A stretch of 64,000 bases of DNA from Erodium maritimum (Eukaryota > Streptophyta > Magnoliopsida > Geraniales > Geraniaceae): positions 20,339,432 through 20,403,431 of the forward strand of contig OY997592.1 in NCBI GenBank assembly GCA_963921825.1, in the 5' to 3' direction. A program made the translations under genes and the position numbers. Below are positions 20,451 to 62,150 of this stretch, piece after piece. Under the pieces are notes generated by a model. That model made no database searches, was not told the DNA's origin, and saw nothing but the letters and a program-made list of their open reading frames with translations. Position 1 is the stretch's first letter. The number at the start of each line of letters is the position of its first letter.

Positions 20451-21275
20451 TGTCACGCCCCAAATCCGATTTTAGCCGGACTCGAGACGTGAACTAAAAT
20501 AATAATAAAAAAATAATAAAAGTAAATTTAAATAACATAAATCTCTGAATGGTTCATAATAAAAAAATCTGATGCCACGAGTCAAACGCCCAAGATATAA
20601 TTTAGGAAAAACAAGGTTTGTGCAAAAAGAAAATACGTCTCTACTAAAGATAAATCCCCAGACTCTCGATGAGATCCCGAGCTCTGAGACGTCCTCTAAA
20701 CTGACTCACGATCGAAACCTGTAAAATAGTAAAAACAGAGGGGGTGAGCTTTCGCTCAGTAGGAAAAAAGTCGTAACGGGAATGGACTTCCGCTCCGCTG
20801 CCATAAGTATTCGATTAATAACACTTACTAATAAATGAAACACAAACAGACACCAACACGAACACAACATTACCGACAATGGAACCAATTTAAAGAAGCA
20901 TACAAACAACAAAACAATATACTGCTATAACCATTGCGAACATCACTCAAAGCGACATCACACGAACATAAGATGAGTAAACTATAATACTCTGATCCGA
21001 AAACGCAGCTCAACATATCATACCGGAACACGGCCTCGGTCTAGATATCTTCCCGGAATCCAACATCGGGGTGAAACAAATACATCATACCGGGATACAC
21101 CCTCGGTCTAGATGTCTTCCCGGACACACAGCATCGGGGTGAAACAAATACATCATACCGGAATACCCCTCGGTCTAGATGTCTTCCCGGACACACAACA
21201 TCGGGGTGAAGCAATATACATCATACCGGAATGCCCATCGGTCTGGATGTCTTCCCGGAAACGCACATCGGGGTA
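20451..21275 (-). mobile_element. Truncated LTR fragment of the long-LTR family (fossil)
   Basis: Opens TGTCACGCCCCAAATCC like the LTR end at 671 and carries the same cggtctagatgtcttcccgg repeat units. No primer-binding site lies beside 20451, so this edge meets ordinary flanking DNA. It is either a solo LTR or a 3' LTR. The match stops near 21275 where Mutator-like sequence begins. Confidence 0.8.
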
Positions 21276-30931: not shown

Positions 30932-32655
30932 TGTAAGAACCGCCCCCGGTCGATCCCGGTCGAACCGGTGATTTTTTGGCGAAGTTTGACTTTCGGCCGG
31001 AAAAGTCAATCGGTGACTCCGGGAGTCATTCGAGACCTTTCTGGTACCCAAAAAGCTTAACCGTCGTTACGGTTAGCTTAGTTGGGTCGTTTCCATTCGA
31101 TTGATTGTTTGTGCGAAAAAGTCAAACTCGGGTCAAACTTAGGCCATTTATCGACTAAACCCTAGTTAAATTAAAGGTGCTGGATTTTATTAAGGGAAAG
31201 GTGGCCCCCACTAGGACACTTATCCATAGTGGCTTGGAGGAGAAGAAATGAGTCTCTAAAGACCCATTTACCCTCTTATTTTGCCAATTTGGAATGAAAG
31301 GAGCAAGGGGCAAAATGGGTAACTCAACTATAGGTTAAAGGGACCTTTTGGAAGAGCATTTAAGCTCATTTCTTGTGCTGGCCGAAAATTGCAAGGGAGA
31401 GAGAGAGAGCTTGGGAGCCTCATTGCTTGGAGAAGAAGACATTGAAGAAAGGAGACAACTTCAAGGGATTTTCTTCACCAAAACTTGCCAAAACACCTTC
31501 TTCTTCATCCCCTCTTCATCCTCAAGGTAAGTAACCTCTTAAATTCCACTTTCAATTAATTTAAAGTTATGGGTTTCCTTGGTTTTTGCTTGAACTAGAT
31601 AGGTTTTGATTCCAATTTGATTAGATGATTGTTTAGTGAAGTAGTGGTGGAGGTTTTGGTTAGAATTGAGTTGTTTGTTGTTGTTTGGAGGAAACCCATT
31701 ATGGGTATTGAAGTTTGAGGGTTTTGGTGACTGATTTTGAGGTTTAATGATGGTAAAATTGGAGTTTTTGAGGTAGTTTTTTTCGTAGAAACGAAGTTGG
31801 GGAAGAAGGTGCTTGAGCCTGCCCAGTTTTGGCACGGAGAGGGCTTGGTTCCGGCCCTCTGAGCGGCACGGAAAGGGCTCGGTGCCGTCCCTCTGAGCGG
31901 CACGGTCCGAGCCTGGTGCCGGGCCTATGAGGGGCACTGTGCGGATCTGATTCCGGGCCTCTGAGGGGCACGGTCCGGGCCGGTTTCCAGAATTGTGGGC
32001 TGCCCGAATTGGGGCTAGTTCGGGCCCAACTTACCTTTTGGCCCAAGTATTTGTAATTAGGGTTAATTTAGGTAGTTCACTTTAAAACCGTATTTGTTCG
32101 TTTATTAATTATAGTATTAATTTATGTTCTTAGACCTTATTCTCGAGCTCGGAGGAAGAGACTTCTAGGTGCTCGGTTGGTTAAGCGTTTGGAGAACTTG
32201 AGGTAGGGAAGAGTAGTAAATTTCCGCTTTTAATTAAGAAATGATAATAGTATGCATATAGGATAATAATAACCGGAAGAGTCTTAGTTGGCATATAGGA
32301 TGTGATTCACTAGATTAATCGCTTTCAATTATGGGAATTGTCGTGCTGTAGAATGGCCATATCGAGCCTTAGGATTGGTTGTGTTTGTGTGTGATTATGA
32401 TTAATAGTCCTCAAATGTCGATGCATGTTCCGTTTTTTGGTTAAAATGAGAAGCATATTAATTAGATGAATTATGATGATTGTGATATAAATGTTGCTTT
32501 GTGACATGATTGGTTGAGTGATTTTGTTGAATGTAATATGATTGTACCTTGTGATATGATCGGGTGAATGATAGACCTATGGGACGTGTTAGGTAAGTCG
32601 TGCCGGTAAGCTTGGTTGATAACATGATTTCGGTGTATTGTGTTTTGTTTGCTAT
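30932..32655 (+). mobile_element. Partial LTR of the long-LTR family, plus orientation (fossil)
   Basis: Opens TGTAAGAACCGCCCCCGG exactly at the edge of the broken gypsy LTR. It carries the family's GC-rich units (31830-31990) and the atagtattaatttatg and tattctcgagctcgg phrases seen in the copy at 671-3424. It stops near 32655 without the GGGGCGTGACA end. Confidence 0.75.
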
Positions 32656-38537: not shown

Positions 38538-39417
38538 ATTCCTAATACCAAAATTTAGCTAGTAGAGTTGGTCTCATATTAGTCATATACATGTTAGACA
38601 CAATGAAGTACTTAGGGGGATTTAGGGTGTGAAATGGCATACCCTGACCCGGGAAAGTTATAGAAAATTGTAGAGCTTTCAAATATGTTCGATTTGATAT
38701 TTTACGGGCCTAAATCGGAATTCGTATGAAGAAGATATGATCATTTAAAGATTTGATGCGTGTTAAACCCCATTTTACTTCAAATGCTCTTTCTAACAAT
38801 CTTATTCGCCATTTTTTGTATATTGTATTTTAAAAATTAGATGTAAGACATAAGAGTTAAGTAATATACATATATAAGTATTTTTAGTCATAGACAAATA
38901 ATGTAACTTTGATTCATTTTTAAAAGAAATGATGTCTAATATCTTTCCTATATTGTAGTAAATTTAAATCTAGGGTTCGATTATAGTCACATGAGTTATT
39001 AGGTATGTAAATATTTTTTTCAACCTAGCATTTACTATATTTTAATAAGAGATGTCGCCTCTTCTATCAAGAATTTATGGATCCGCTATTGATGAGAGAT
39101 TGGAATTGCGTTTGAACTAAATATATATTTATGCTTATATTATAATCTGAAATATTAATATATTTGATTATGTGAGGACAAATCTAATAGAATTCCTCTT
39201 ATCCTAAAAACTGTGTGAACCAATCCTAGACATACACTCCTAAGATCCAACATTCATCATAATACCACATCATCACCCCAATCCCACCCAAAATTCACGC
39301 CACTTTCATCTTTTCTCACACAAGCAAGAGTATAATTGTAATAGCATGGTGCCATGTGGACAAGTGTCCATTTTTTTCCTTCACTAATTCACTAATTTAA
39401 TGTCCATTTTTTTCTTC
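38538..39417. other. Unassigned AT-rich stretch
   Basis: No gene is seen. 38640-38800 (gaaaattgtagag, cgatttgatatttta, aatcgga.ttcgtatgaa) resembles 42700-42800, so both probably come from one unrecognised repeat family. Confidence 0.4.
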
Positions 39418-40134
39418 ACCAATTCACTAATTTAATCATTCCCGTTTCGTTTTAACTCCGATTAGCTTCAAAGTTGCACCAATATTTTTCTTTTTCCAAG
39501 GGATTTAAATTAAGATCGGTCATAAATATATTTTGAAGCACAAAAATAAAAAGTTATATCGGGGTGATAAAATAATGTTCAGTGTTGATAAATCTTCACT
39601 AATAAATGTTTTATATTGGGGTATCTAACTAGTGCTAAATGTTGATTAAAAAAACATGTACTGAGGTGATAAAAAACAATTAATGAGGTGATAAAAAAAA
39701 TGTGTACAAATTTGATAATAAGTGTGATAAACTAGAGTTCAGCGTTGATAAAAAATCATGTGATGGGGTGATAAAACACATGAAATTTAGTGATAAACAT
39801 AGTGTTTAGTGTTGATAAAACTAGTGCTTATTGTTCATAAAAAAACATGTGATGAGGTGATAAAAGTCATGTTCGGTTTTGGAAAATGAGGTAATAAAAC
39901 TAGTGTTAAGTGTTGATAAAACCAGAGTAAAGTGTTGATAAAACCAGTGTAAAGTGTTGATAAAAATTACCCAGATATAATTTCTTTTTAAATCATCCCC
40001 TAAATTTTTTTTTCTTTAAAACATATTCACCACTGATCTTGATAGAAAGCCCTTGAAAAAACAAAGATATTGACGCAAGTTTGAAGCCAATCAAGATTCT
40101 AACGAAGCGGGAAAAATTAAATTTGTGAATTGGT
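39418..40134. mobile_element. Fold-back element, copy 2, with a 22-bp tandem core
   Basis: Arms of about 130 bp are inverted repeats: the left begins accaattcactaatttaat and the right ends aaatttgtgaattggt. The arms share cccg.ttcgtttt.aactccgat and gcaccaatattctt-like phrases with the element at 55523-56832. The core (39560-39965) is a degenerate array whose clearest units are agtgttgataaaaccagtgt plus aa, 22 bp. No flanking duplication was identified and outer ends may extend further. Confidence 0.7.
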
Positions 40135-40253
40135 AAAAAATAATAATATGATAGTTTTACTAAAAAGCCCCTACAACTTACCAAAAAAGTGATGTTTTTT
40201 CAGTCAACAACTCAGTTGCATCTCATCCATCCATTTATGAAATGGATGGCTTA

Positions 40254-42251
40254 GAGCATCCACAGTTGTTGGCGGGAAGAAAACGTTGGCGAGGAGCTGG
40301 CTGGGAGGTGCCTGGGAGCTAGCGGGGAGGTCGCTGGCAGGGATGGCTGGCTGTGAGCTCATCGCTGGCACTCCTCGCCGGCACCAACGACTAGTTTGTC
40401 CTAAAAATCTAAATGACCTATAGAATAATCTTGACCCACTACATTCTTTTTTGAAAATAACACAAAACATAAAAACAATTTATCTCTAAAACATTATAAA
40501 CCCACCCTAATTCAACTAAAAATCACAAGCTTTCTAGTCTCACTAGTCATCCTTCTCACAAATCATCGTCCTGACCCGCATTCTTGTTCGTCCGTCGACA
40601 TGGCCAACCTACCCAACGATGTTGATTTGAATTTCATTTTGCATGAGGTACTCGAAGACTGCTTGTCCACCGAGGGGGTTTTTTAGATGAAGCTTTGGTC
40701 GATTCTCCACCACGTAAGCGAAAATACATTGCACGTGACCATTTAGCCGCAAACAAACGGTTAATGAAGGATTACTTCAACACGAACCCTGTGTACACGG
40801 AGGTGCATTTCCGTTGTCGGTTCAGAATGCCAAAGGATGTGTTCCCGTATCTTACATGCATTGGAGCAGCACGATGATTACTTCAAGTCAAGGTTAGATG
40901 CATTGGGTCAAGTTTCATTTTCTCCTTATCAGAAATGTACTACGACCATTAGGCAGTTATGTTACGGAATTGTAGCTAATGGCTTGGACGAGTACTTGAA
41001 GATAAGGAAAACAACGTCATTGGAATGTTTGAGAAAATTTTGCAGTGGAATCAATAAAGTATTTGGTCCTACGTACCGGCGTAAGCCTACACGGGCTGAT
41101 ATGGACCACATTTTGGCGGTTAATAAAGCGTGAGGGTTCCCGGGCATGCTTTGAAGTCTTGACTGGATGCACTGGGAGTGGAAGAATTGCCCAATGGCAC
41201 ATCGAGGAGCACATTCCCGGAGGGACCACGATAATCGACCGACCGTTGTCCTCGAGGCGGTTGCTACTCGTGACTTATGGATTTGGCACTCGTTCTTTGG
41301 CATGGCGGGATCGAACAATGATTTGACGGTGCTCAACCATTCCAAACTGTTCGCGGGCGTTATCAACGGTTGGCAACCACCAGTTTAATATACGATAAAT
41401 GGTAACCACTACACACTCCCGTATTATCTTGCTGATGGCATATACCCTTCATGGCCAATCTTCGTGAAAACAATTCCATTACCTCAACTCCCGAAACAGA
41501 AGAAGTTTGCTGAAGTCCAAGAAGCGTGCAGGAAGGATGTGGAACGAGCATTCGGTGTACTCCAAGCTCAGTTTCACATTATCAAGCGACCGAGCCGCTT
41601 GTGGATACCCCAATACATCGGCTTGGTAATGAATGCATGCATTATATTGCACAATATGATAGTTGAGGCTGAACGTCATACCTACGAAGGCTACCTTGAA
41701 CAAACAGATGAAGGTGGGACAAGTCAACCACATATTGCACGAGGAGGCTTTGTCCCGACCAGATCATACTTGGAAACACTACGAGGATGCAAAATGAACA
41801 CATACATTACCAGCTGAAGGACGATCTCGTCGAACACATTTGGAATAAATTTAGAGATGCCTAGCTTCTATTATCTTTCATTATGTTTTAATTTTAGTTC
41901 TAGTTCTTCTTCAACTCATTTCTGGTATTCTTATCTGTGATGTTTATGTTTATTTTAGTGTATCTTTTTTAATTTATGGACTTGTTTTTTTTTTACGCTT
42001 TTTTTAATTTAAGTACTTGTTTTTTTACATATAATATAATTAGATGGTTTATACATATTTTTTAAAAATATAACTTGAAAAAAATATATTAAAATAATTC
42101 TTTTTCTTATCGTCGGCGGCTCCCCGCCGGCACAAAAATCGCCACTGCAACTTGCGCAGGCGGTGAGCTGGCTGGGAAAGAAAAAACACATTTTTAATCC
42201 TCATCGCCAACGCCTCCCCGCTAGCAGCCGGCGAAATGGTTCTGGATGCTC
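40254..42251 (+). mobile_element. PIF/Harbinger element D
   Basis: Left end GAGCATCCACAGTTG and right end (reverse complement) GAGCATCCAGAACC are flanked by TTA at 40251-40253 and 42252-42254. GC-rich sub-terminal strips (40270-40390 and 42110-42240) surround a single transposase gene. No ORF1 is seen. Confidence 0.9.
40600..41864 (+). pseudogene. Decayed PIF/Harbinger transposase
   Basis: From ATG at 40600 (MANLPNDVDLNF) the sequence follows plant Harbinger transposases nearly to the end (HIWNKFRDA, stop 41862-41864). Recognisable blocks: FRCRFRMPKDVF, QVSFSPYQKCTTTIRQLCYG, SLECLRKFCSGI, MHWEWKNCP, EAVATRDLWIWHSFFG, GSNNDLTVLNHS and KDVERAFGVLQAQF. Frameshifts lie near 40685 and 40850. Stops lie just before GFPGML, within the SLDCMH-like motif (which reads SLDWMH) and after GWQPPV. 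It is less decayed than the copy in element A. Confidence 0.9.
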
Positions 42252-42254
42252 TTA

Positions 42255-42980
42255 GATTGGTACACACAGTTTTTACGTTAAGAGGTGGTTTCTATTTGAT
42301 TTCTTCCCTTAGAAAGATAAACTTGTCTTTTTCAAGCTAGTTTTTTAAAAAAAAATTACATTGTCTTTCGAAAGTCTATTTTTAATGTTTAAACTATCTT
42401 TCAATACTTCTTTTTTTGAACATTTTTTTCTTCTAAACTTATGTTATTATTCATTATAATATTTGAAGTTGTAAAATGTAAATATTGAACTTAATCAAGT
42501 TTTTGTACCAAATTTTTTTTTTTTGTAAATTCTACAAACGCATACGTCCAACGAATGACGTAACCTCAAATGTTTGTTCCATAACTCTTGTATGACTGGT
42601 TGTACGTTTTGCCAAAAATGCTATGCTCATGGCAGATCGGACAACGTACTGACCATTTGACTTACATAACATGTATGAGTTCATAAAATGTTTTTTCTTG
42701 GGTGAATTCGAGCTTGAAAATCGTAGACATCTGAGTTTCATTCGATTTGATATCTTACGAATTAAAATCGGAGTTCGTATGAAAAAAATTATTTTATTTA
42801 GAAGACGATCAACCTTTAAGACTCCATAGGATGAAAAATTTCTGACCTCTGTTTGGAGGTTGAATGTATTCACTATACGGGGATGCCATCCAACATACAT
42901 GATAGTTCATATTTTACACTAGTATAAATTTATATAAAATACAAACACTTGTTACGAGTTAAATTGAAATAGAATAGTAC
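42255..42980. other. Unassigned AT-rich stretch downstream of HSP70
   Basis: No gene is seen. 42700-42800 shares gatttgatatcttacg and aatcggagttcgtatgaa with 38690-38740. Confidence 0.4.
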
Positions 42981-53783: not shown

Positions 53784-56700
53784 TTATTTCTTACCTGCAA
53801 TTCGAAAATATAATTCTAATGGGTATCAGTAAGGTCGTTAGAATATAACTGCATCCTCAACTTCACTTCTTTAACATAATTATCACATGGAATATGACAG
53901 TAGACACACGTAGGAATGGGATCACAGCCGGTGTTTCAATTCCTTGGTTAGGTATGTAGGACACTAAAATGTTCGAGCGTGATAAACAATTATGTGACCG
54001 AAAATTGTAGTGATGCCATTGGAAGTTTTCAAATCAGTTAAAACTGGCACTTGTTATCAGTAGATTAGCCAATCAGTCTTGTCCCCCACTCAATTATCAG
54101 CAACTAAACCATCATGCGGAGTTAAAATTGAGGACACTGCTGGAGCAAGAACAAACATACGACAAAAGTACCTCTTTGGAACCAAGACTTCCAAACAGCA
54201 TGGCGGATTTGACGCTCATGTCTTCTTAAGAGTTCATCCACTCTATGTGGCTGAGATAATAGCGGTCCTGAGAATTCCACTTTGTCTACTTGATCCTTGT
54301 AACCCTGTTTGTTTGATGTAGTAGGTTCAACAAGTTAGTTAATAAAAGAATACAGGAAATATACCTCATATACAATCACATTTTCATACAAAATAACTTG
54401 AGACATGATTTCTTTATTTTTAAATCCAACTTCCAAGATTTCAGAAATATTCATGCGAAATTCAAGGCTCCTGAGACTAATATTGTAACCATAGCATTGC
54501 AAACTATGGCTGTTATCATTGCTCCATCTCATTACTTTATCACCATAAGAACTACAAGCTGGAGTTGCAACCTCTTCCCACCAACAACATTCCCAAAGTT
54601 AAATTTGTAGCAACACATTATTCAGCCAATAAAAACACTTGTCCAAAGTAATTTCTCTTGTTTTTGTATGATTTAATCCTGACATTCGCTTATCAAAAAA
54701 AAAATCCTGACATTTAAGTTTTTCAATTACCAGAAACGATATCTCAAGTAAAAACTGGTAACTATTCAATGTCTCAGGAGAACAAAATCCCGGCCATAAC
54801 CCAACGAAGTTTACAATTCAAATCGTCTGATAAATACTGAATAGTAACGAGCTCCATCTGTAAAAAGTTGTAGCAATATGACCAGAGCTTCATTTTATTT
54901 TCAACAAAGGTTGAACTCAAAACAAAATTTAATTGGTTTTAATATGTAGACAAACTTACCAAGCCACTTCTCTTAGCTGCCAATTCCTCTCTCTGATATA
55001 AGGCCAGAGATAGTTCCAGTGAGTGGTATCCATTGGAAGCATCATAAGAGGCATAGCCTCTAGAATTGGTGCGGCCTCCGGACGTGACAACCTCATTCTC
55101 ACGGCTTTTTGAGTCCAAATTGGTATTTGAATCAGGTACTGCTGAAGGTTCTAATGCATAAAAAATGTGACCTTTTGAAATAGATCTGGTGTAGGATCTT
55201 GAGGATGCATCATCTTTCCGCCTTCTTGCCCATGCAAATCCACTTGATGTTGAAACTTGCAATGGACCGGAAAAGGGAACATCTCCAAGTGATGCATTCT
55301 TTAAATGGGAAGGATCTTGCAGTTTATCAATTGATACCTTGAGTGCCTCCCCACCTAACATATCAATGCCACCTTCCTTCACCATATGCACATCAACATT
55401 AATTTTATGCCCACTTTCAGTTTGAGCTGCCAAATTCTACAGGAGAGGGAGTGATTGATCAATGAGAATAGAGTTGTCTCTACTTGTAAAGCTCTAAAAC
55501 TAAGTGTATATATATATATATAGGGAGGCTTTCAGGTGCGAACCCCTCTTAAAATGCGAACATGCGAACTCAACAACAACATGACACGTGTCGCGCTTAG
55601 AAATGCTCATCTTTTTTTTTTCCCACCAAGTTTATTAATTAAATTTTTCCCGCTTCGTTTCAACTCCGATTTAACTTTTTTTTTTTGCACCAATATTCTT
55701 ATTTTTTCAAGAGCTTTCTAACAAGTAGTGGATTGCATATATTTTGATGTGTTCTTGAATACGTGTGTGGATGTGTGAATATGAGTGCGAAAAAGTGTGA
55801 TGTGTTTTGCAAATTTAGTGTATATGGTTTGCGGATTTAGTGTATATGGTTTGCGGATTTAGTGTATATGGTTTGCGAATTTAGTGTGTTTTGCAAATTT
55901 AGTGTATATGGTTTGCGGATTTAGTGTATATGGTTTGCGGATTTAATGTATATGGTTTGCGAATTTAGTGTATATGGTTTGCGAATTTATTTAGTGATGT
56001 TCAAGGCATGGAAGTTCTTTGCTGGTATGTTGGGAGCATTTTTCAAACAAATCAAATGCACTGAACATCAAGAAGATGAAGATATTACAAATCAGCATAA
56101 TATAGTATATATATTTATATATGGTATTAGACAATTAATATGATGAATTAATATGATGATTTAAGTAACTGACTTGGTGTTACAGGGGTTGCCAACTACA
56201 AGCACTTTTGACATTTGGAGATGCAACAGCATTGAGAGCACTGAATCAATAAAGATACAATTTTGAGCAACACACATATAACATATATACACTATAAATA
56301 ACACTAAATTCACAAACCATATACACTAAATACGCAAACCATATACACTAAATTCGCAAACCATATACACTAAATCCGCAAACCATATACACTAAATCCG
56401 CAAACCATATACACTAAATCCGCAAATCATATACACTAAATTTGCAAAACACACTAAATTCGCAAACATATACACTAAATTCGCAAACCATATACACTAA
56501 ATCCGCAAACCATATACACTAAATCCGCAAAACATATACACTAAATCCGCAAAACACATCACACTTTTTCGCACTCATATTCACACATCCACACACTTAT
56601 TCAAAAACACATCAAAATATATGCAATCCACTACTTGTTAGAAAGCTCTTGAAAAAATAAGAATATTGGCGCAAGAAAAAATGAAATCGGAGTTGAAACG

Positions 56701-59700
56701 AAACGGAAAAAATCGAATTAATAAACTTGATTATAAAAAAAGGGGGGCATTTTCTGAGCGCGACACATGGCGCAATCTGGTTGAGTTCGCATGTTCGCAC
56801 CGTAACTCATGGTTCGCACCTGATTGCTCTCCTATATATATATATATATATATACTTATATTAGCATCTGGACACAATCACACACACACATACCTCGGAT
56901 GGTGCCAATTTACTAGTTCCATAAGCCTTCCGCTGAGGCTTTCTAATTTCAGATCCCCGAATTTTTCCACCATTGTTTTTCCTTGATTAACAGTCCCAAC
57001 ACAGTTACAATGTTAGACAGAGAATATAATACAAGCTTATCAACAAAGTTGGCAGTGTTTGTGCTACATGAAATCTCATAAGCTCATTCATTTTGTTAGC
57101 AATATTTTTCCAACACATCCTTAAAAAGCATGGAAACTACAAGAAATCCAGTTACACTTTCTTCAAATTTGAGAGTCAATCAAAAAAGGAAAGGATAGGC
57201 ACTGAAACGCTTCATAAAATAGAAATAGCAGAAGATAATATATGCCACATTAATCAGGTTAATGCTGATAACTGGCCTTTGTTACCTGATTGTTACTCTA
57301 TATATATAGATATATATATTGAAGACTAAAAACAAAATAATTCATGCTAAGGGTGTCAATGTTACTTCTAGGATTTGAAAATAATAATCACTCCAAACAC
57401 ATTTCAAATGAGAATCCTCACCTCCTTGCCTCCTCACGATGTTTGGCATCAATCTCTTTGTTAGGTGGATATCTAGGCAAGCTTGAAGGGTCACATGCAT
57501 ATGGCATCATTTTGAAATACTGAAAATTCAAGGATATACAGTCAGCAATGCCAGAGATACAGCAAATGCTTATAAATATCATCCTAGCATATGTATATGC
57601 AGCGTTTATGTGGCTTAGTAGGAGAGAGAGAATAAAGCAGAAGAAAGATCAATATCGACCTATCGAAATTCCCTACGTAGAATGAAAGACCATATTCAAT
57701 TTGAACTGATATATGCCCATAAATACAGAGAACCAAAGATGAATATGACTATCATTGTTGTTTGTTGTAAGTCATAATTACCTCGGATGCAAGAGCAGAG
57801 GAAGCAGTCCCACGCTTGTACGGCTCCACACATAGAAGATTTTCTATCAGGCTCACCGCAGTTGTTGGCAAGTCTTTAAAGGTCTCCTGAAGACAACTAG
57901 CATAAGGCTGTTGTGGCTTGAATAGAGTTGCATGAGGCAGTTTTGTTTCTTTCCAGTACTCATCTGCTGGGGATCCACAAAGCTTGAAAATTTTATGTAA
58001 TTGTTCAACCTGTATGGAGACCAAAATAATTTGTTTTAGTTACAACACAGAACAAGAATTGTAATGGAACAAGCAGTAGTACTACCCCCAAAAGCATATT
58101 TCGGATTAAGAAGGAAATGGAAACTTTTGACAAACCATCTTGTTCCTAAAGTACTTACCAACTACCATAAAAGGATGCATTGTGATGTGCACTACTTAAA
58201 TGTGCAATAGAGAATAAAACAGTATTTCTGTAACACTATTCTATATGTAACTTATGCAGTCCTTTCAATAGGAATGAAAATAAAGAATAGTTAATATATC
58301 CTACTTATCAATATTTACTCTGGGTTGACAAAAAACTATGAATGGAAGCCGCACATTAACATCCCTTCTTTAGAACTCAAAAGAGATAGTCCTTTATCTT
58401 CTCTTACTTTGAGCGAAGAAAATTCAGAGGAGGGTTGAAACTGGTAATTCCAAGATCCCCCTTCAACTTTATCTTTGTGCTGTGTTTCCATGCTCTAAGA
58501 CTATTAATTATTCAATACTATAGTAACTGTGATAAAGTACCCTTGTTAACTTCTATCAATATACTCCACTGGTTAGATGAATCAAATCATAGAAGGAGAA
58601 ACACTATAGGTATGAATGTATAAAACTGAGGTTGAATGAAGTATATACCTCCGTTCTCCCTTGAAGAATGGGTTTGCCAAGGAGTAATTCTGCAAATACA
58701 CAGCCAACACTCCATAGATCAACAGACGCCCCATAAACTGTTGAACCAAGCAGAAGTTCAGGAGGACGGTACCACAAAGTCACCACACGACTAGTTAGGG
58801 GTTGCCTGCATCCAGAGCTACACAAATTGGCTAATCCAAAATCAGCCACCTTCAAAACTCCTTCATTATTTACCAATAGATTGGATCCTTTAATGTCCCG
58901 ATGCATTATCCCTCGCGAGTGACAATGCTCAAGTCCAGATAATAGCTGCTTCATATAGCATTTAATCTACATAATAAAACCAATCTTAACCTTCACTGTA
59001 TCTGTAAAAATAAAAGAAACAAAAACTAATCACCTCTAGAAAGCTAGTCCAGAAGAGAAGTAAGAACTAACCTGTGCCTCACTAAATGTGACCTGAGGAC
59101 AAGACAAGAGTCCAGTAATATCGTGCTCCATGTACTCAAACACAAGGTATATGCTACACGACAATCTAGAAGTAATTATCCCATCCAGTTTCATAATATT
59201 CGGATGATCAAGCCTGCGGAGAATCATTATTTCCCGTGCCATGAACCTGACGCTTTCAGGTTCAAAATTGTCAAAACGGACTTTCTTCAAAGCAACTATC
59301 CTTCCCGTGTCAATTTCTTTTGCACGGAATACACTGCTGTAAGTTCCTTGCCCAATCTATTAAACCAGTTGAAACTATATTAAGAACAACATGAATGTAA
59401 CAATTGTACATTCTAAAATAAAAGTAGCCTTTGAAATCATACAAGAATTAAGAATTAGTTAAGCTAGTGCTCATTTTCCCAATCCATACATAATTCATTT
59501 CCTCAAAAGGTAAGTGCGCTTATTTTGAAACGCCCGTTTTAGGACACTATAACACTCATGTAAGGAATCCACCATAAGTAGAGGATTGTTATCACCTTCT
59601 CGATCTAGCATTTGAGTTAAAAGGTAAAACATCCTTTCCACAGCAAAGAGTAAAGAGACCTCAATTTGAGAGGGGTGAGATGAATATACTTGTTTTTAGC

Positions 59701-60794: not shown

Positions 60795-62150
60795 TTTTTT
60801 TTTACCGAATGGTGCGAGATTTTATTAGATTTTAGTAATAAGCATTAAGAAGGATTTTTTATCACTAAAGAATTGACATAGAACGAGTCATTCTGATTGG
60901 ACAGTGAGCTGCCTTGTTCGCAGTCCTTTTTATAAATTGAGGAAAAATTCTCTCGTTTTGGGTCAACATGAGACGAATGTCCCTAATAACAGTATTTATC
61001 GAGGATGTTGGGCGTCTCCTGTTTGGATCATTTTAAGCAGAACCTGAGAATAGGAGCGTATGATAATAAGGGTCGTTCCCAAAGATGTCATGTTACGAAG
61101 TGCTGTAGCAATGGCATAAGCTTCAATCATAATTGGCGATCCGCAACCCGGGATGACCTCATTGGCCGTGAGACCGACCCTTCCATCCCCCGCACGGCTG
61201 ATCAAGCCCCATGCCGATTGGTCCGAGTCTTGAAAAATTGCGTCATCTACATTGATAACCCAAGTTCCTACCGGGGGGAATGAATCAAGATGGTCATCAT
61301 GGGCGAGCTTGTGTCGGGATCACAACTTTCAAGTTTGCTTCCTTCCAGGCTAGAAGGTGGGAACAAGGATCTGCTAATACTCCTATAGATGCTGGGGTGG
61401 TTCCATTCCAGGTCCAGGCGTTCTTGGCTTTCCATATTTCCCAGTGGACACTAAAGATCTCTATCACTCCATTATTGGTTGGCCCCGTGGTGATACCTAC
61501 CCACCACTCTTCAAACGTTTTAATAGTCAGGGTAGGGGGCATATCCCCCAATTGCTCATAGCATGTTTTTGCAAAGCCACGGGAAAGGAACAAATGAGCG
61601 ACCACGTTAAGGGTGTCGGCCACATATAGCACAAGTGGATGAGATCGGGACATACCCCCGAGTCAGGTTACCCGCAACTTGGAGGGTGTTTGTGAGGCCT
61701 CTCCATAGGAAAACCCGGAGTCTAGGCGGTACAGGGATATCCAAAATAGATGTTCATGTTATTATCACCATATTGGGATGCAATTGATGACGATCCTGGG
61801 AAAGGATATAGTACCATGCCTTGGTAGTATATCGTTCTTCTCTATCAGAAGCCCAATACCATTCATCCTTAGTCATATTCTCTGATAATAGAACTTGGAG
61901 AATATTGGCCCTATCAGTCTCATCGAATAATCGATGGAGCAAATTGACGTCTCAGTGGTGGGTTTCTAGGACCATAAGACCCGCAACTGGGGCCCCGGCT
62001 AGTGTAACATTTGTTGAAGCAATGGTCGTCGTCGGCCCTACTAGCCAAGGAGTGTTTTTAATCAGTGTATCCCGACCATTCCCAATGGCGATACGAAGTC
62101 CATTACGCAGAAGCTCCTGAGTAGATATGATACTGGTCCAAATGAAACTC
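60795..62150 (-). mobile_element. 5'-truncated LINE tail with RNase H-like domain
   Basis: On the minus strand, blocks in order match the end of plant L1-type LINE ORF2: a GLRIAIGNG-like start and TLIKNTPWL (62000s), then LLHRLFDETDRANILQVLLS and DEWYWASDREERYTTKAWYY (61754-61942), a zf-RVT/linker region with HWEIWKAKNAWTW (61297-61653), and an RNase H-like block with EAYAIATALRNM (60996-61205). The poly-A side is the t-run near 60795. Frames are interrupted, so it is dead. The 5' edge is approximate. Confidence 0.75.

Follow-up and report, generated by a model that had tools for sequence, protein, structure and literature searches.

The window, a stretch of 64,000 nucleotides from Erodium maritimum, contains two elements with similar arms and different tandem interiors of the same unit length, which raises the question of how a repeat period can be kept while the repeated sequence is not. 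A preliminary description of this DNA proposed a transposon family that keeps its ends and repeatedly gains or rebuilds a tandem interior of fixed length. Its observation is confirmed by our analysis, and its interpretation is partly supported.

Two elements with 22-bp tandem interiors

The first element, E1 (55523..56832, plus strand), is a MULE foldback element of class A, complete but non-autonomous, within a (TA)n microsatellite, with (TA)n tracts on both sides. Its terminal inverted repeats begin with GGGAGGCTTTCAGGTGCGAACC on the left (55523..55576, plus strand) and GGAGAGCAATCAGGTGCGAACC on the right (56779..56832, minus strand), their inner limits being approximate. Further inward lies an arm module common to several families, at 55616..55731 (plus strand, 89.2 bits) and, inverted, at 56628..56739 (minus strand, 91.5 bits), scored with an nhmmer model derived from these very arms. 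The left array of 22-bp units, TTTAGTGTATATGGTTTGCGAA, occupies 55794..55989 (plus strand; TRF, 9.0 copies), and its mirror occupies 56301..56565 (minus strand; TRF, 12.2 copies). The two arms of E1 align with 86% identity over 481 columns. In the unit listing, the same irregular 18-bp unit is present in both arrays, so that these are not independent of each other, although they differ in unit number. Self-identity at lag 22 was far above that of first-order Markov resamples (z = 18.4; mean largest z over lags, 1.8-1.9), and the predicted fold is a single long hairpin (MFE -718 kcal/mol, a value without a shuffle control).

The centre of E1 (55990..56300, plus strand) is non-repetitive, and other class A copies have a different one. 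A search of the genome with E1 gave 2,079 candidates; most matches among the 40 scored were near full length. Flipping of the centre alone was rejected because left-type and right-type arms swap too in the copies checked, which indicates that reversal involves whole elements. As a separate observation, the centre has an exon-intron-like look, and a Pack-MULE origin is a candidate idea.

On one side of E1 we observed protein kinase gene segments (57418..59356, minus strand; Pfam PF00069 plus open stretches), with Pkinase domains (PF00069, by Pfam) at 58604-58966(-) and 59036-59356(-). Coding-looking minus-strand open stretches flank E1 at 57418-57648 and 54939-55436; a Pfam scan of these two gave zero matches. 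The placement of E1 in a putative kinase intron, as first described, holds as a reading of the sequence.

The second element, E2, belongs to class B. It had been placed at 39418-40134, but its actual extent is longer, from about 39174 to about 42308 (plus strand, both ends approximate), and includes a later insertion at 40254..42251 of about 2.0 kb, with TTA on both flanks and ends GAGCATCCA/TGGATGCTC, which we take to be PIF/Harbinger-like. The left arm module lies at 39408..39519 (plus strand, nhmmer 94.6 bits) and the inverted right one at 40033..40143 (minus strand, 94.2 bits). Between them, a degenerate 22-bp array with a unit close to TGATAAAACCAGTGTAAAGTGT spans 39560..39970 (plus strand, limits approximate), with 22-bp stretches detected by TRF at 39649-39703, 39791-39843 and 39894-39965; its lag-22 z was 7.2 against the same type of resamples. 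For the kinase copy, E1, the array had been described as present in both arms in opposite sense, which is true; that of E2 runs one way by reading. A target-site duplication was looked for in the flanks of E2, and none was seen.

In a search of the 64-kb window, E1 and E2 matched over about 104 bp at 77% identity (E 1e-12), in agreement with the roughly 100 bp of common arm sequence first noted, and all four left/right arm pairings between them matched (E 1e-12 to 2e-8). The sharing of arms was thus borne out, but not their identification with the element ends: the common inverted module, of about 110 bp, sits within the elements, whose true ends are further out.

Families that share the arm module and the period

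Genome-wide, the arm pattern is matched exactly at 1,047 places (reversed control, 0), and the arm-bearing elements comprise five unit classes, A to E, with a period of 21-23 bp. An arm-only search had been expected to recover many copies with varied units of one period, and this is largely what it did. The arm-bearing loci are a non-random set, most having been fetched through a match to E1, E2 or the E1 arm; 11 were chosen for differing spacers among the first 100 arm matches listed, and ten duplicate loci (L001, L009, L017-L024) were removed before the core-unit and arm-tree counts. Classes F and H have arrays of 21-23 bp units without the arm module, those of F being GC-rich. The class B TIR gave 468 exact matches (control, 0). 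A tandem core is not universal: at locus L076 and in other arm copies the arm is present and the array absent, and family G, with a TIR style like the others, has no array (22 was the top lag in 0 of 18). Copies without a tandem core had been named in advance as counting against the proposal, so these cases go part of the way towards refuting it. The tie of array to inversion was overstated: by reading, arrays are mirrored in A, E and F, partly in C and not in B. Copies of class E match themselves on both strands across about 470 bp.

The terminal inverted repeats have G-starting ends, as in MULEs. Class B target duplications, within the 8-11 bp range of MULEs, were read in 4 of 12 loci, the remaining loci being unclear or having lost them; they measure 10 bp in L010 (TCTGTAGGTA), L013 (CCTATCTACA) and L016 (ACGAGTTGAT), and 9 bp in L065 (TATAAAAAT). 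For class A the duplication is indeterminable inside (TA)n. Classes A, C1 and F show (TA)n flanks and neighbouring elements joined end to end, and A and C1 display the insertion into (TA)n and clustering in one microsatellite that characterize microsatellite targeting; the TA flanks of F, G and H are partly a product of selection, since loci were found by cutting at (TA)n. Most class B copies read lie outside microsatellites. E1 has what characterizes foldback elements, long inverted arms that contain tandem subrepeats, whereas the class B array is unmirrored.

An autonomous partner was sought in L029, L065 and L077, which contain insertions with no recognised transposase (judged by open frames, with a domain scan of the long L029 frame). 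The centre of L029 was rejected as such a partner, since its ORF looks retroposed, encodes an RRM domain and comes with a direct repeat of its own; L065 and L077 were rejected, by open frames only, as elements with other insertions. Counted apart from these TIRs, the MULE domain PF10551 had 1,627 candidates in the genome, of which 150 were scored. For DUF1985, which we take to be a domain linked to VANC, whose proteins bind their target arrays and remove methylation, 150 of 841 candidates were scored, and every one listed passes the cut-off.

Period and unit sequence compared

Spacing was counted between two exact motifs, in places taken whether or not they lay within arm-bearing elements. It was 22 in 93 of the first 100 class B places listed (of 6,222), 22 in 98 of the first 100 for class C (of 865), 22-23 in 96 of the first 100 for class D (of 584), and 21 in 29 of 31 for class E, where 17 of the 31 places fall inside the 40 E copies listed. 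In whole C1 elements, 22 was the strongest lag in 0 of 4 (strongest lags 18, 18, 24 and 16), which departs from a conserved period. A fixed 22 bp, about two helical turns, had been suggested; near-constancy at 21-23 stands, but the exact value does not, and strict two-turn helical phasing was rejected because periods of 21, 22 and 23 bp all occur. Tandem-filled transposon hairpins are ordinary in kind; the near-constant length of about 22 bp across families is unusual.

A period of 21-23 bp also occurs away from the arms: of the 74 arrays in the fetched sequence that fall outside the 900 bp inward of an arm, 26 have it. By reading, 18 of these 26 carry units of F or A/D/H-like type, the rest being AT-rich (5) or of other types (3). 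Periods other than 21-23 were found in 48 of 74 arrays outside the arm zone versus 15 of 158 inside, an inside set made up mostly of class A, which was selected for.

The cores had been called unrelated. This is correct between the groups A/D/H, B, C, E and F, for which no unit homology was detected in any of the 18 between-group pairs (p 0.07-1.0), but not within the first, as the A, D and H units are mutually related (p 0.002 each, the minimum possible with 400 shuffles). An earlier unit-to-unit test among A, B and C was not significant (p 0.12-0.91), and a profile comparison of A, B, C and D supported A-D alone (4 of 300 permutations); it was too permissive for spacing, and its spacing counts were set aside. 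In a midpoint-rooted FastTree phylogeny of 49 of the 161 arms (hits shorter than 95 bp left out), arms cluster by unit class in topology, with the single exception of L038, which has a class A arm and motifs of both A and D. Because unit class tracks the arm tree, descent with synchronous turnover of units is simpler than the repeated gain or rebuilding first proposed. Since homology between the groups went undetected, a shared ancestry of their arrays is something that we infer rather than read from the units. The idea that each unit arose by amplification of part of the TIR of its own family was rejected, as the resemblance was no better than that of shuffles (p 0.2-0.5), which leaves amplified transposase sites without sequence support.

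Inheritance, selection and likeness to known systems

We favor, with a probability of about 0.6 for the whole, the explanation that E1 and E2 represent two families within a single large non-autonomous Mutator-like group whose array is inherited, the units being replaced in concert and the period kept, as in the VANDAL arrays bound by VANC. Transposition would be cut-and-paste and would probably depend on a transposase provided in trans, some families favoring (TA)n microsatellites. Each family retains an inverted terminal region, formed by the outer TIR plus, in A-E, the arm module, and most retain an interior of tandem units of 21-23 bp. Most likely, the array was already in the ancestor and then inherited, so that one ancestral array may stand behind those of B, C, E and F. 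Within a family, units would change jointly by slippage, unequal exchange and conversion between arms; given this joint change, and period shifts mainly by whole-unit steps, the unit sequence would drift fast while the period persists. The most likely use of the array would be as a lattice of putative binding sites for an element protein particular to the family; the candidate roles are secondary sites for the transposase and anti-silencing sites like those of VANC.

An alternative that we consider unlikely is that the 21-23 bp spacing is itself selected, because a DNA-binding protein, such as a transposase multimer or a VANC-like factor, would need sites about two turns apart, so that arrays of another pitch would be lost, whatever their sequence or origin. 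Five mutually unalignable unit groups all hold this spacing, and DUF1985, with its link to VANC, is abundant in the genome. In PMC3573991, the tandem repeats within the ends of transposons are suggested to serve the transposase as secondary sites of binding. However, with periods of 21-23 and a rotation of about 34 degrees per 22-bp unit (at 10.5 bp/turn), no constant helix face is presented; the resemblance of units to their own TIRs is not significant, and the published VANC motifs are not enriched. Confined to the MULE group, with a selected pitch read by a putative family-specific protein lattice, of transposase or of an anti-silencing factor, and a unit sequence free to change wholly, the proposal is a tentative possibility.

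It is doubtful that the families acquired or rebuilt a fixed-length interior independently of one another, out of new sequence: the unalignable units of A/D/H, B, C, E and F, and the GC-rich, armless F, would suit such an origin, but the concordance of unit class with the arm phylogeny, and the drift of A, D and H at a constant period, argue against it. We give very little credence to a period tied to small-RNA length, in which 21-22 bp hairpin arrays would give rise to the same 21-22 nt siRNA many times over; the predicted hairpin of E1 and the both-strand matches of E copies agree with this, but the one-way arrays of class B would not self-pair. Coincidence, or a generic minisatellite length in this genome, for which the 26 outside arrays might speak, is highly improbable in view of the F or A/D/H-like units in 18 of them and the excess of other periods outside the arm zone.

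If unit sequence changed beyond recognition at a held pitch of 21-23 bp, an inherited period would be separable from a selected spacing, and such families would offer a natural series in which to look for a protein that reads the arrays, should one exist.

FB elements have tandem repeats within long TIRs. So do Galileo, a member of the P superfamily in which they expand and contract (PMC3573991), and Tetris (PMC4079207), but the units of Galileo F and Tetris measure about 210-220 bp in the available portions of both sources. SIRC cassettes of Arabidopsis also hold short direct repeats, with the inner structure of MITEs as their proposed origin; as described in the accessible text, these are repeats of 10-29 bp with diverse spacers between them, and not contiguous arrays (PMC10342631). 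Tm1 Mutator/Foldback elements of a root-knot nematode resemble ours in their composite inverted repeats, inside which short tandem repeats vary in number, and have mostly 9-bp TSDs, but the motif is of about 14 bp and the host is an animal (PMC3169594, available part).

In plants, MuTAnT of Medicago truncatula comprises non-autonomous MULEs that have foldback TIRs and reside in (TA)n, some of them intronic or near genes, with a variable terminal G run and 9-nt TSDs outside perfect microsatellites; they are mostly of 200-300 bp, and conserved 22-bp interior arrays are unmentioned in the accessible text (PMC4486113). The gSaTar/rSaTar and Micron elements of guayule and rice are likewise microsatellite-targeted non-autonomous MULEs joined end to end, with 10-bp TSDs when outside microsatellites, but "tandem repeat" occurs 0 times in the available main text, which gives no common interior period (PMC5907723).

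Fast-diverging tandem arrays are already known in MULEs, as anti-silencing targets in one case. The VANDAL/VANC elements of Arabidopsis are coding, neither "period" nor "spacing" occurs in the available texts (PMC5735166, PMC10398659), and the VANDAL motifs YAGTATTAY and AGTTGTCC/AGTTGTAC are not enriched here, as 78 cores (64,769 bp) gave 2 and 1 matches to the VANC21 and VANC6 motifs taken from the accessible part of PMC5735166, against shuffled means of 8.2 and 3.4. The likeness lies in noncoding MULE tandem arrays with rapid synchronous divergence (PMC5735166, PMC10398659): our elements have family-specific, synchronously diverging units in noncoding MULE DNA, and the VANC target arrays, as far as the available text describes them, "vary considerably between related TEs" while their units evolve together (PMC5735166).

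Two elements with a common arm module

The preliminary description had placed a foldback element at 55523-56832 within a kinase gene, and had proposed that it shares arm sequence with an element at 39418-40134 and that both cores have the same 22-bp period; all of this was borne out. The first element (E1, class A) has exact limits at 55523-56832, with (TA)n tracts on both sides, and lies within a protein kinase gene, in a gap that looks like an intron, on contig C5 (74.8 Mb, in a genome of 763 Mb in 40 contigs). Its arms agree with each other at 86% over 481 aligned columns. The second (E2, class B) extends from about 39174 to 42308 and is interrupted by a TTA-flanked insertion of about 2.0 kb at 40254-42251 (ends GAGCATCCA/TGGATGCTC, TTA duplications), which from its appearance we take to be PIF/Harbinger-like. 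All four left/right combinations of E1 and E2 arms match, the best at 77% over 104 bp, and the periodicity of the two cores at lag 22 was far above that of Markov resamples (z 18.4 for E1 and 7.2 for E2).

The alignment of class B copies with their flanks revealed that the arm module is internal and not the element end. Thus, of the proposed family with conserved ends, the conservation of the arms across families stood, but the real class B ends lie outside them. The element starts with GAGGAGAAATC(T/A)AATAGAAACC..., and target-site duplications were found in L010, L013, L016 and L065 (TCTGTAGGTA, CCTATCTACA, ACGAGTTGAT and TATAAAAAT, respectively); none was callable in the other 8 of the 12 class B loci read. 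Target-site duplications of 9-10 bp and terminal inverted repeats (TIRs) starting with G are the mark of Mutator-like elements (MULEs), to which we therefore assign these elements.

Several further features were observed. The centre of E1 (55990-56300) resembles a captured gene fragment of exon-intron-exon structure (GTGTTACAG|GGGTTGCC), and the centres of other class A copies are unlike it. Adjoining the kinase gene, at 60996-61319 on the minus strand, an RVT_3 (RNase H type) reverse transcriptase-like match (E 1.3e-4) reads, from its sequence, as a retroelement fragment. Two arrays 20 kb apart, at 1252-1654 and 21017-21274, have a common 67-70 bp unit (CATCGGTCTAGATGTCTTCCCGGACACACAGCATCGGGGTGAAAC...), and at 2310-2527 and 31831-31973 there are GC-rich 34/68-bp arrays, on opposite strands, whose units seem similar. 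Among the fetched loci, a class A element is nested within a class B element (L032, 3079-5436), and another class A element (L029, 1626-4080) contains what is probably a retroposed insertion, with an open stretch of 602 codons that includes an RRM domain (Pfam 1.6e-12), an A-rich end and the direct repeat AAAATAGAAC.AAACATAAT.

Abundance and interior period

As expected of an arm-only genome search, many copies were recovered: the arm pattern gave 529 + 518 exact matches and the class B TIR 249 + 219, with none for either reversed-pattern control. The copy numbers from the whole-element searches are lower bounds, since only 40 of 2,079 candidates for E1 and 40 of 5,576 for E2 were scored. An HMM of the four arms of E1 and E2 found 169 matches in 64 loci and the window (84 on one strand, 85 on the other), forming 67 inward-facing pairs once duplicate loci were dropped.

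The 161 arm matches of at least 95 bp were assigned by unit words up to 450 bp inward to classes A (106), B (34), C (14) and D (3), with four in none. Recurring 7-mers most often lay 22 apart in class A (65%), class B (38%) and class D (42%); class C had 45 as its commonest distance, followed by 22 and 44, which would fit a double unit of 22 + 23. One of the four unassigned arms, next to L002, represents a further class, E. It has a 21-bp unit, and nearly all of its 40 scored copies (of 1,168 candidates) match both strands over about 470 bp. Among the matches listed genome-wide, motif spacing was 22 in 93/100 places for B, 98/100 for C and 62/100 for D, with 23 in 5/100 for B and 34/100 for D; for E it was 21 in 29 of 31 places genome-wide, 17 of the 31 lying inside the 40 listed copies. 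Lag 22 was strongest in nine of 11 further arm loci picked for differing arm spacers, the exceptions being interrupted (L069) or without an array (L076), and came first in 10 of 12 cores examined, lag 16 leading in two cores of C-type (C1) elements. Periodicity in C1 is weak, as the top lags of whole elements were 18, 18, 24 and 16. The constant-period pattern is real, and the expectation of many copies with varied units and a 22-bp period was mostly borne out, although the period is 21-23 bp rather than exactly 22, and L076 and whole C1 elements depart from it.

The pattern extends beyond the arm. Splitting the fetched sequence wherever a (TA)n tract occurred, and retaining segments with inverted ends, yielded 66 elements. 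Among these, 22 was the top lag in 17/17 class A copies, 4/4 of family H and 11 of 18 of family F, which has a GC-rich unit near GCGCACAGTGCTAATAGTTTGG and no arm (otherwise 19 in four, 23 in two and 25 in one). Family G (18 copies of about 260 bp in the fetched loci, TA-bounded, e.g., L003 2806-3067) has the same TIR style and no 22-bp array. Because 22 is never its top lag, unlike in A, F and H, the array is common in the group yet not obligatory. A period of 21-23 bp was present in 143/158 arrays within 900 bp of an arm and in 26/74 farther away, the latter mostly with F or A/D/H-like units, by reading.

Relatedness and turnover of the units

The cores had been called unrelated. This holds between the groups A/D/H, B, C, E and F, where none of 18 comparisons was significant (p 0.07-1.0), but not for A, D and H, whose units are related (p 0.002 each, 400 shuffles). 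When 49 of the 161 arms (14 from each of the classes A, B and C, three from D and four unassigned) were placed in a midpoint-rooted FastTree, whose branch support was not inspected, they grouped by unit class; L076, with no array, fell beside the D arms and L006_1063, whose array is cut short, within C. The A-armed element L038 has both A-like and D-like words. Since arms group by unit class and A, D and H are related, descent with unit turnover fits better than exchange of interiors, although a common origin for the five groups is our inference.

In the kinase copy, E1, the same odd 18-bp unit occurs in both arms, with 9.0 and 12.2 units (TRF), and one gap in the arm alignment spans 21 columns, roughly the length of a unit. 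Copying of the mirrored array was followed by changes of about whole units. Such steps would leave the period little altered, with sequence free to sweep through the array.

Possible use of the arrays and comparison with known systems

We suggest with modest confidence that the likeliest use of the arrays is as a family-specific binding lattice, be it for a transposase or for a VANC-like anti-silencing protein. Alternatively, the arrays could possibly give a small-RNA register in the palindromic classes, which would be unnatural for class B. A test for units copying the element's own TIR motif was negative. Strict helical phasing is not supported, given that 21, 22 and 23 all occur.

Regarding the binding lattice, published VANC motifs were not enriched in the cores. 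The domain DUF1985, which we take to be the VANC domain, is abundant, with at least 150 matches in the genome (150 scored of 841 candidates). Among the matches listed, at least eight for MULE (PF10551) and DUF1985 are within 10 kb of one another (C8:57487168/57495453, C4:6364027/6370671, C6:37022493/37029899 and others), possibly representing VANDAL-like coding elements. In the literature covered, which included few subscription papers, we found no published account of MULE families that differ in their units but have one constant interior period.

Class A and C1 copies sit in (TA)n and are frequently connected via the microsatellite to other elements. In the parts of the sources consulted, this placement and end joining resemble those of the SaTar elements of guayule and rice, which insert in microsatellites and are connected through them (PMC5907723), and the comparable behaviour of the microsatellite-located MuTAnT elements of Medicago (PMC4486113). 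Likewise, as far as the portions consulted describe them, the VANC target arrays of Arabidopsis VANDAL differ between related elements and evolve synchronously (PMC5735166, PMC10398659), a behaviour similar to the unit turnover proposed for the arrays of the present elements.
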